Below are positions 61,447 to 63,617 of a stretch of 64,000 nt of DNA, in pieces. The position numbers and the translations under genes were made by a program. Under the pieces are notes generated by a model, which was not told the origin of the DNA, made no database searches, and was given only the letters and a program-made list of their open reading frames with translations. The stretch spans positions 806,001 through 870,000 of the forward strand of contig NZ_CP126269.1 in the NCBI RefSeq assembly GCF_003234445.2, written 5' to 3'. The stretch is from Curtobacterium sp. MCLR17_036 (GTDB lineage Bacteria > Actinomycetota > Actinomycetes > Actinomycetales > Microbacteriaceae). The number at the start of each line of letters is the position of its first letter. Positions within the stretch are counted from its first letter, which is position 1.

Positions 61447-62916
61447 GTGCCCAAGATCCTCGTCGTCGGCGGCGGTTACGCCGGCTTCTACACCGCATGG
61501 AAGCTCGAGAAGCACCTTCGCCAGGGCGAAGCCGAGGTCGTGATGGTGGACCCGCTGCCGTACATGACGTACCAGCCGTTCCTGCCCGAGGTCGCCGCCG
61601 GTTCCATCGAGCCCCGTCACGCCGTGGTCTCGCACCGCCGCCACCTCAAGAACACGCGCGTCGTCACCGCGAAGGTCACCGGGGTCGACCACGCGACGAA
61701 GACGGCGACCATCACGCCGACCGAGGGCGCTGCGTGGGAAGAGTCCTACGACCAGATCGTCATGACGGCCGGCGCCGTGTCGCGCACGTTCCCGATCCCG
61801 GGCGTCGCGGACGAGGCCATCGGCCTCAAGACCATCGAGGAAGCCGCGGCGATCCGCGACAAGATCCTCACCAACTTCCACAAGGCCGCGAACCTGCCGG
61901 CCGGCCCCGAGCGGGAGCGCCTGCTGACAGTCGTCGTCGTGGGTGGCGGCTTCGCCGGCATCGAGGTCTTCGCCGAGCTCCGCTCGTTCGCCTCGGACCT
62001 GCTGAAGAGCTACCCCGAGCTGTCCTTCGACGAGACGCACTTCCACCTGGTCGAGGCCATGGGGCGCATCATGCCCGAGGTCTCCCTCGAGACGTCGCAC
62101 TGGGTGCTCGAGAACCTCGCGTCGCGCGGTGCCGTCGTGCACCTCGACACGCAGCTCGCCTCGGCCGAGGGCGGCGTCTGCCAGCTCAAGGCCAAGGACG
62201 ACTCGATCGAGACCATCGAGTCCGACCTCATCATCTGGACCGCCGGTGTCATGGCGAACCCGATGGTCAAGGGCACCGACTTCCCGCTCGAGCAGCGCGG
62301 CCGCATCCGCGTGCAGCCCGACCTCCGGGTCGTCGACGACAACGGCGTGATCGCCGACGCGTGGGCCTGCGGTGACGTCGCGGCCGTACCGGACCTGACC
62401 GGTGGCGGTGTCGGCGGCTTCTGCGTGCCGAACGCCCAGCACGCGGTCCGCCAGGCGAAGCAGCTCGCGAAGAACCTCGTCGCGACCATCCGCGGCGAGG
62501 CGACGACCGACTACAAGCACGAGAACCTCGGCGCCGTCGCGGGCCTCGGACTCGGCACCGGTGTGTTCCAGTCCGGCAAGTTCGCGATGAAGGGCTTCCT
62601 GGCCTGGGGTGCCCACCGCGGCTACCACGGCCTGGCCATGCCGTCGTGGGAGCGCAAGTGGCGCGTCATCGGCGACTGGGTGGGTGGCTTCTTCCTCGGC
62701 CGCGACACCGTGTCGCTCGACGACCGCGAGACCCCGCGTGCCGCGTTCGAGACGTTCGCGTCGCGACCGAAGCCCGCTGCGGACGCCGCTGCGCCGGCCG
62801 CCGCTGCTCCGGCCGCTCCGGAGGGCCAGCCCGCCGGTGCCGCCGGTCCCGCGTACGGCGAGCCCGCGAAGGACGTCTCCAACGAGGCCGAGCCCGTGAA
62901 GGCCGACGTCAAGTAG
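61447..62916 (+). CDS. ndh: Type II NADH dehydrogenase
   Basis: Membrane-associated flavoprotein that passes electrons from NADH to quinone without pumping protons. A 489-residue protein: ILVVGGGYAGFYTAWKLE is the FAD site, VVVVGGGFAGIEVFAEL (about 157-173) the NADH site, AWACGDVAAVPDLTGGGVGGFCVPNAQHAVRQAKQLAKN the conserved flavin/quinone segment, and the region from about 380 to 425 (FLAWGAHRGYHGLAMPSWERK) the membrane-anchoring amphipathic part. The last 60 residues are an Ala/Pro-rich tail. GTG 61447 has AAGGAG upstream. Terminator follows. Confidence 0.95.
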   Translation: MPKILVVGGGYAGFYTAWKLEKHLRQGEAEVVMVDPLPYMTYQPFLPEVAAGSIEPRHAVVSHRRHLKNTRVVTAKVTGVDHATKTATITPTEGAAWEESYDQIVMTAGAVSRTFPIPGVADEAIGLKTIEEAAAIRDKILTNFHKAANLPAGPERERLLTVVVVGGGFAGIEVFAELRSFASDLLKSYPELSFDETHFHLVEAMGRIMPEVSLETSHWVLENLASRGAVVHLDTQLASAEGGVCQLKAKDDSIETIESDLIIWTAGVMANPMVKGTDFPLEQRGRIRVQPDLRVVDDNGVIADAWACGDVAAVPDLTGGGVGGFCVPNAQHAVRQAKQLAKNLVATIRGEATTDYKHENLGAVAGLGLGTGVFQSGKFAMKGFLAWGAHRGYHGLAMPSWERKWRVIGDWVGGFFLGRDTVSLDDRETPRAAFETFASRPKPAADAAAPAAAAPAAPEGQPAGAAGPAYGEPAKDVSNEAEPVKADVK

Positions 62917-62932: not shown

Positions 62933-62969
62933 CGAGAGGCGGTCGTCCCTCTGGGACGGCCGCCTCTCG
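62933..62969 (+). terminator. Terminator of ndh
   Basis: CGAGAGGCGGTCGTCC (62933-62948) pairs with 62954-62969 over 16 positions with one G-U pair, loop CTCTG, followed by TCGTCTC. Confidence 0.88.
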
Positions 62970-62994
62970 TCGTCTCGGTAGGCTGGTCCGGCCC

Positions 62995-63068
62995 GCCCCC
63001 GTGGCCCAATCGGTAGAGGCATGCGACTTAAAATCGTCGAGTTGTGGGTTCGAGTCCCACCGGGGGTA
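62995..63068 (+). tRNA. tRNA with UAA anticodon (tRNA-Leu-like) and short variable loop
   Basis: Acceptor stem GCCCCCG (62995-63001) pairs with CGGGGGT (63061-63067; first pair G-U), discriminator A. The D arm is of the leucine type with a three-base GCC/GGC stem and AATCGGTAGA in the loop. The anticodon loop is CTTAAAA, anticodon UAA. T arm GTGGG-TTCGAGT-CCCAC is perfect. The variable region is only five bases (GAGTT), whereas bacterial leucine tRNAs have a long variable arm; total 74 bases. The anticodon stem has a U-C mismatch and a G-U pair, and an alternative CGAC/GTCG pairing gives an eight-base loop. CCA is not encoded. Leucine identity is thus uncertain. TAGGCT at 62979-62984 may be its -10. 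Confidence 0.8.
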
Positions 63069-63137
63069 CGACCGGTTGGTCGCAGAGCGCGTACGACGCC
63101 GTGACCGACGTCACGCCGTGCAGGGAGGGGCATCGCC

Positions 63138-63617
63138 GTGGAGGGTTGGCAGAAGTTCGTCTACTGGGCACAGTGGGTACCCGTCGTCGCGATCCCGATC
63201 TGGTGGGTGCGGGCCCCCGGTGCCGGCGACCCGGGGTGGAACGCCCTCGGCATGATGCTGTTCGGGAGCCTGGCTGCCGTCGCGGTGGCGATCACCGCGC
63301 TGATCTCGGCCCGGAACCGGGTGAACCGGCAGGCGCTCGCGGTGTCCCGCGCGTCGGCGTGGGCGGTCCCGCTCCTGTGGGTCGTCGCGTGGCTGCCGCC
63401 GGTGTTCCTCGACGGCAGCGGCGACGTGTGGTCCTCCGCGTCCTACGCCACGAAGTGGTGGGGCCTCCCCGGGTGGGCCGGCAGCGGGCCGCTCTTCGTC
63501 ACCAGCCTGCTCGTCTTCGCCGCAGCCTGGGTCGCGGCACTGGTGGCATCCGGCAAGGACACCGACGTGCGCGCGGTGTCCGACGGTGATGACGACGAGA
63601 GCCCCCGGTACCGCTAG
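63138..63617 (+). CDS. Membrane protein of unknown function
   Basis: A 159-residue protein with four hydrophobic segments (about 10-25, 35-57, 73-93, 117-137) and an acidic C-terminus (DGDDDESPRYR). It is rich in Trp. GTG 63138 has GGGAGGGG upstream. I recognise no family. It lies 70 bases after the tRNA and 39 bases before a ThrE-like gene. Function unknown. Confidence 0.75.
   Translation: MEGWQKFVYWAQWVPVVAIPIWWVRAPGAGDPGWNALGMMLFGSLAAVAVAITALISARNRVNRQALAVSRASAWAVPLLWVVAWLPPVFLDGSGDVWSSASYATKWWGLPGWAGSGPLFVTSLLVFAAAWVAALVASGKDTDVRAVSDGDDDESPRYR

Follow-up and report, generated by a model that had tools for sequence, protein, structure and literature searches.

A class I leucine-type tRNA with anticodon UAA in Curtobacterium sp. 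MCLR17_036: structure, distribution and probable function

Leucine tRNAs of bacteria belong, by the textbook account, to class II, the tRNAs with a long variable arm. The closest described systems are cited here from the accessible parts of the papers concerned. In six Streptomyces genomes the single tRNA gene for the codon UUA is bldA (PMC4932002), which has been described as a regulatory switch (PMC4932002, PMC12772374). Some tRNAs of M. tuberculosis, "especially" Leu-2, 3 and 5, have Ser-like long loops (PMC11541572), and some genomes of the Mycobacterium mucogenicum clade carry a short-loop tRNA-Leu(TAG) in a tRNA cluster (PMC6582537). The known leucine determinants are A73, A15-U48, G18G19 and A20a for the leucyl-tRNA synthetase (LeuRS) of E. 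coli and U8-A14 for that of A. aeolicus; E. coli tRNA-Leu variants without the long arm are reported to be active, the arm being dispensable for leucylation in that species (PMC9976931). Our literature search, which covered few subscription journals, gave in the accessible texts no class I tRNA-Leu(UAA) as a resident bacterial form, the nearest being that of PMC6582537; since this coverage is incomplete, the absence of a description does not show that the form is unpublished.

The stretch of DNA analysed here, 64,000 nucleotides of Curtobacterium sp. MCLR17_036, is referred to as the window. Near its right end a sequence-only reading had pointed to a UAA tRNA of class I shape. By comparison of sequences, we conclude with a probability of about 0.88 that this gene encodes a working elongator tRNA that inserts leucine and has a class I shape at odds with the textbook. 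The features of the locus are collected in Table 1.

Table 1. Features of the class I tRNA-Leu(UAA) locus in the window
Feature	Position	Strand	Remark
ndh-like gene	61447..62916	+	Pfam Pyr_redox_2
GC-rich hairpin between ndh-like gene and tRNA	62934..62968	+	likely terminator
TAGGCT, -10-like (TANNNT), inside TCGGTAGGCTG	62979..62984	+	putative promoter element
class I tRNA-Leu(UAA) gene	62995..63068	+	74 nt including discriminator A73
D arm with leucine-type loop	63004..63020	+	A14 A15, G18 G19, then Y-A-G-A and three paired bases
anticodon arm, loop CTTAAAA (CUUAAAA)	63022..63038	+	anticodon TAA at 63029-63031
variable loop GAGTT	63039..63043	+	5 nt, ends in U48, the partner of A15
T arm	63044..63060	+	five perfect pairs
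ORF downstream of tRNA	63138-63617	+	no Pfam or NCBIfam match

The tRNA gene and its immediate surroundings

A tRNA-Leu(TAA) gene was called by ARAGORN at 62995-63069(+), and the Rfam covariance model RF00005 matched 62995-63068 over its full length with 56 bits, above the gathering cut-off of 29 (E 2.2e-9), which places the gene among the cloverleaf tRNAs. The proposed class I shape was confirmed, as was the view of a real and undecayed gene; the window sequence holds a variable loop of 5 nt and no long arm. The leucine-type D loop, the anticodon loop, the perfect T arm and the G-U first pair are all as the sequence-only reading had described them. The acceptor stem is GCCCCCG/CGGGGGU, with G-U at 1-72 followed by A73; CCA is not encoded, CGA coming after A73. 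The D arm reads GCCC-AATCGGTAG-AGGC and carries two marks of the class I form, C12-G23 and C13.A22. The window has a single occurrence of the 13-base string CGACTTAAAATCG, which none of 100 shuffles contained. By folding energy alone the sequence does not stand out (z -1.78; 8 of 200 shuffles fold equally well or better); the evidence for the gene is its covariance score, its conservation and the compensatory changes.

For the analysis of pairing, 141 distinct copies with a 5-nt loop, called by ARAGORN on bacterial chromosomes, contigs and plasmids, were parsed. Stem positions were paired in 139 to 141 of them, except for 27-43 (128) and 13-22 (0, always C.A); these counts are partly built in by the parser filter (at least six of seven acceptor pairs) and by the preselection of cloverleaves by ARAGORN, so that the argument lies in compensation among intact copies and not in the intact share. 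Highly variable columns showed pairing well above shuffles, 28-42 for instance being paired in 141 copies against a shuffle mean of 59.6, and compensatory changes were detected at most stem pairs. G-U at 1-72 was present in 35 of the 141 bacterial copies and, among the viral matches listed, in 65 of 109 distinct copies.

The anticodon stem, which had been called faulty, indeed has one non-pair at 27-43 (U.C) and one G-U at 28-42 in the window copy. The apposition at 27.43 is pyrimidine-pyrimidine at all 24 genus loci and is thus inherited, not a sign of decay; the G-U at 28-42 (U42) is found at 2 of the 24. The alternative of an eight-base anticodon loop with a shifted anticodon was ruled out and is not needed, because 31-39 is paired in 140 of the 141 bacterial copies.

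The element TCGGTAGGCTG, including TAGGCT, lies upstream of the tRNA at 24 of 24 genus loci, 10-11 bases off in 21 and 28 bases off in 3; a scan for sigma-70 consensus promoters found nothing near the window tRNA. Farther upstream, the hairpin in Table 1 has no T run and a terminator scan made no call on it; similar hairpins with other letters are present in the genus flanks, and the hairpin probably ends the ndh-like gene. The product of this gene, which we take to be a type II NADH dehydrogenase, gave no NCBIfam model at cut-off. The downstream ORF adjoins the tRNA only in this genome among the 90 loci compared, indicating that the downstream side varies.

Distribution and genomic place of the class I form

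The genome of the strain, a single contig of 3.6 Mb, was searched for tRNAs, and all 47 tRNA places obtained at E <= 0.001 were typed with ARAGORN. The window gene was the only UAA tRNA among them; a second, normal class II tRNA-Leu(UAA) was not found at any of these places. The other leucine tRNAs, CAG, GAG, TAG and CAA, are class II, with 83-87 nt and a variable region of 12-17 nt. One LeuRS locus scored above the family cut-off; no second locus did so in this genome, although weaker hits exist.

In a search of 39 genomes, this one included, 37 had a match to the tRNA. Absence from relatives had been named in the sequence-only reading as evidence against the gene; instead, it is present in all 23 same-genus genomes, where 71-74 bases match at 89-100% identity. 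In other families, some of the weaker matches were to other tRNAs or parts of tRNAs, and the 30 loci fetched from this search all read as Leu-TAA.

Of 296 genomes sampled across the class, 163 contained an exact class I UAA pattern (none with the reversed-pattern control) and 49 contained a class II UAA pattern; one of these 49 (G086) has a single match that is not tRNA-like. No genome matched both patterns, while about 27 would be expected if the two were independent, a figure uncorrected for kinship. All 14 sampled genomes of the own family have the class I form. The premise that bacterial tRNA-Leu is class II was therefore too strong, and the observation is more general than the sequence-only reading supposed. 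Neither pattern matched 84 genomes (85 with G086 moved), at least partly because the patterns are too strict. A looser pattern matched 28 of 36 chosen genomes, not all of them from this unmatched set; the loci read included class II genes with other D arms and UAA tRNAs with 6-, 8- or 9-nt loops. A still looser pattern matched 8 of ten further chosen genomes, none of the matches being tRNA-like by eye. One of these ten, G074, has a class I UAA tRNA with C33, missed because all patterns exclude C33. A two-mismatch pattern (185 of 296) was dropped in favour of the exact one, as it also caught CAA and UAG anticodons; in a phylum sample 45 of 198 genomes matched this two-mismatch pattern, which there too admits CAA and UAG.

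A scan of named contigs gave at least 119 stretches. Among the matches listed, 108 are Actinomycetota by record lineage, with titles that include Mycobacterium, Nocardia, Rhodococcus, Gordonia, Corynebacterium, Arthrobacter, Microbacterium and Streptosporangium; one is titled Rhodococcus with a cyanobacterial lineage and one has no lineage. The nine others listed are, by record lineage only, Planctomycetota (2), Myxococcota (2), Acidobacteriota (2), Rokuibacteriota, Pseudomonadota and Terryibacteriota.

Lists of tRNAs were made for three genomes, G000 (the genome of the window), G062 (a relative of another family) and G074; in all three the short form was the sole UAA tRNA. In G074 (family f33, 7.5 Mb; loci L465-L508), class I tRNA-Leu genes exist for both UAA and CAA, and the UAA loop is CCUAAAA, with C33 in place of the near-universal U33. 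Class I leucine tRNAs with UAG (CTTAGGA) or CAA (CTCAAAC) loops were seen in, for example, G048, G050, G090, G122, G166 and G057. Genomes with such UAG or CAA tRNAs match the class II UAA pattern, indicating that different isoacceptors are class I in different families. Two UAA tRNAs (L276 and L292), near-identical in G213 and G081 from two families, combine a variable loop of 9 nt with an unusual D arm.

The class I copies differ from 36 distinct class II copies in the core as well: A9 in 129 of 141 against G9 in 36 of 36, and C12-G23 and C13.A22 in all 141 against G12-C23 in 36 of 36 and G13.A22 in 26 of 36. The class I form is thus a subfamily of its own rather than simply a class II gene made shorter. 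A73, U8 and A14 are present in all 141 bacterial copies, and the pair 15-48 is A-U in 140 copies, the remaining one having G-C. For copies found by pattern, conservation of the D loop and anticodon loop is partly built in, the search patterns covering positions 18-26, the anticodon loop and part of the T loop; positions 9, 12, 13, 15, 48 and 73 lay outside the patterns. Among the viral matches listed, 109 distinct copies (including the attP-like stretch of phage REQ2, described below, and one copy like the host genus's own) have A-U at 15-48 in 80 cases and G-C in 23, which is a compensatory change in a tertiary pair.

The genomic place was compared for 363 Leu-TAA loci, 119 of them viral, a neighbour being scored as an ndh-like piece of at least 350 aa. 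Such a gene was within the stretch for 103 loci and outside it for 260. Where it was within, it lay upstream on the same strand for 86 of the 90 class I loci and for 12 of the 13 class II loci, or 74 of 78 and 11 of 12 without repeats of the same place. The distance from tRNA to ndh-like gene is 78 bases in the window and 5.6-5.9 kb in two Streptomyces-like genomes of family f34, in which the UAA tRNA is class II; the assignment of f34 to Streptomycetaceae is weak, as the eight matches listed, all Streptomyces or Kitasatospora, concern an ABC transporter gene only and most of the 1390 records matching the f34 DNA are other genera. Since both forms lie downstream of the ndh-like gene, including in these two genomes, and since bldA is the single UUA tRNA gene in the accessible account of Streptomyces (PMC4932002), the window gene probably corresponds in position to bldA. 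This shared place is not general to class I genes, as the 260 loci with no neighbour in the stretch show; these include all 38 named Mycobacteriales contigs (among the matches listed), which have no ndh-like gene within up to 8 kb. For Mycobacteriales this leaves two options, a different location of the class I gene or a greater distance to the neighbour.

A tree of the ndh-like proteins (77 rows, with the own locus twice; 65 class I and 12 class II) gave six changes of tRNA class, three of them forced by well-supported branches. These changes indicate that the class switch probably happened more than once, or back, or that the ndh-like gene tree departs from the species tree.

Phage copies and the origin of the form

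Phages carry the same form. The window tRNA was matched by 19 phage records, and several of the phage loci hold complete class I leucine tRNAs with anticodons UAA, CAA or UAG, some in tRNA arrays. In a viral collection the exact pattern matched at least 120 stretches, 119 of which hold a class I TAA tRNA by ARAGORN; among the matches listed, it is the sole tRNA of the stretch in 29 of these 119. In Gordonia phage GodonK (L079 301-376, 1497-1571, 2857-2938) the leucine tRNAs for CUA and UUG are class I and that for UUA is class II.

Two other phages match the 3' half of the tRNA only, in each case beside integrase genes: Arthrobacter phage Karkharias (L083 2001-2044) over tRNA positions 31-74 and Rhodococcus phage REQ2 (L084 2001-2043) over positions 30-72, both at 90.9%. 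These stretches are probably attP sites for integration into this tRNA. Within the genus, G004 and G007 (L040, L048) have a 3'-half copy of the tRNA shortly after the intact gene, as tRNA integration would leave.

These observations bear on the origin of the gene, as distinct from its function. The class I form may have come from phages or integrating elements and displaced a class II gene, possibly through integrase exchange of the 3' half (from the anticodon loop to the 3' end, including the variable region). We regard this as possible though doubtful. The abundance of viral stretches with the pattern, the attP-like sequences beside integrase genes, the 3'-half copies that closely follow the tRNA in G004 and G007 and the six class changes on the ndh-like tree are in agreement with it. 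The class I core in the 5' half (A9, C12-G23, C13.A22), however, also differs from that of class II, so that a 3' swap alone would not be enough; moreover, the tree is that of one gene and not of species, and the phage-to-host direction is only presumed. A wider conjecture, to which we give still less credence, is that class I leucine tRNAs form a separate lineage (C12-G23, C13.A22, A15-U48 and mostly A9; anticodons UAA, CAA and UAG) that travels between phages and bacteria and has taken the place of class II isoacceptors repeatedly, most often for UAA and in many lineages at the bldA locus. Its shape might be selected for escape from toxins that cut or modify tRNAs on recognising a long variable arm, and integrases might switch the class by swapping 3' halves.

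Decoding, identity and comparison with known systems

The codon UUA had been described as extremely rare in such genomes, and this was borne out: in the window and ten 20-kb stretches of the own genome, UUA accounts for 2 of 59,305 codons, both in one ORF, among 160 heuristically predicted genes. The workload of the tRNA in this GC-rich genome looks tiny. As this rarity ruled out a check of decoding in the own genome, we used G062, which has its own class I copy and a GC content of 48% in the 300 kb sampled. Its 37 tRNAs include class I UAA and CAA and class II GAG and TAG. In 34 ORFs homologous to sampled own-genome ORFs, UUA of G062 stood opposite leucine in 60 of 111 cases (54%), against 50-60% for the five other leucine codons; by contrast, AUU stood opposite leucine in 51 of 343. 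This codon alignment gives the strongest indication that leucine would be inserted by a class I UAA tRNA, although it comes from a relative of another family.

A regulatory role had also been suggested. In a bldA-like switch, slow or timed maturation of the rare tRNA would delay translation of a few UUA genes. Relative to the ndh-like gene, the tRNA lies on the side where the two Streptomyces-like genomes have their UAA tRNA, and the two UUA codons sampled fall in a single ORF; what speaks for the suggestion is this probable positional likeness to bldA and the rarity of UUA. In G062 the class I form serves an ordinary codon, with 111 aligned UUA, indicating that the class I shape itself is not regulatory. 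We consider such a switch rather improbable for the window gene; it is compatible with, and not exclusive of, the preferred reading as a leucine elongator.

Another amino-acid identity, by reassignment of UUA or by charging with a non-leucine synthetase, is very unlikely. The class I shape is unusual for bacterial leucine, and six features (U8, A14, A15, U48, the third base after G18 and A73) are shared by Arg(CCT) and Lys(CTT) of the own genome, the Phe row not being scorable, so that this score alone does not separate leucine. The D-loop motif Y-A-G-A-N-N-C after G18G19, however, does so, being present in all 5 leucine tRNAs and in 0 of 41 other tRNA rows of the own genome, one of these 41 probably being a false ARAGORN call. 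The window tRNA has A73, A15-U48, U8-A14, G18G19, A20a and an anticodon for a leucine codon, and lacks the long variable arm. These conserved determinants, the reading of UUA in G062 at the same rate as other leucine codons and the place shared with class II UAA tRNA-Leu leave another identity, as raised in the sequence-only reading, unsupported; its further proposal of a use outside translation is not needed as an explanation. A decaying tRNA or pseudogene that has lost its variable arm, to which the irregular pairs 27-43 and 28-42 might have pointed, has a negligible probability given the compensatory changes in the 141 bacterial copies, retention in 23 of 23 relatives with no loss of pairing or conservation, the -10-like element at all genus loci and the lack of another UAA tRNA among those found in the own genome.

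As a leucine elongator, the tRNA would read UUA and possibly UUG. The resident LeuRS would charge it through A73, A15-U48, U8-A14, G18G19 and A20a; charging without the long arm is plausible because none of these determinants needs it. EF-Tu and the ribosome would then use it as an ordinary elongator tRNA. Since its workload is very small in this GC-rich genome, the tRNA would be retained to serve the few UUA codons, most of which perhaps arrive with phage and plasmid genes.

Judged by pattern, 163 of the 296 class genomes have the short form in place of the class II one. Surprising features are how widespread it is, the mutual exclusion of the two forms, its probable bldA locus in the own family and its presence in phages. 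The class switch is placed at the probable locus of a well-studied regulatory tRNA, and the independence of LeuRS from the arm becomes a natural experiment. Tools that demand a long arm for leucine, such as the tRNA-seq rules in the accessible part of PMC6297222, would misjudge this form.

Compared with class II tRNA-Leu(UAA), including bldA, the window gene has the same anticodon UAA, A73, A15-U48, U8, A14 and leucine-type D loop, and lies likewise downstream of an ndh-like gene on the same strand; like bldA it is the sole UAA tRNA found in its genome. It differs in not being class II, with a variable region of 5 nt against 13-17 nt. With tRNA-Leu(TAG) of the M. mucogenicum clade it shares a short variable loop in a bacterial leucine tRNA; that gene, by the accessible account, has another anticodon and is an extra one in a cluster beside a normal class II TAG gene, so that its codon has a second reader, unlike that of the window gene. 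Human mitochondrial tRNA-Leu(UUR) also lacks a long variable arm, and its determinants are A73 and A14 in the accessible part of PMC9976931; it is, however, organellar, is charged by a mitochondrial LeuRS and has a partly unfolded anticodon branch, and we claim no homology. The tRNA-Leu(UAA) of phages has the same class I form, with identities over the matched part of 79.7% for Mx1 (Myxococcus), 80.0% for Phosso (Sinorhizobium) and 80.3% for Cyanophage P-RSM6, and differs in sitting among phage genes, in some cases in tRNA arrays.
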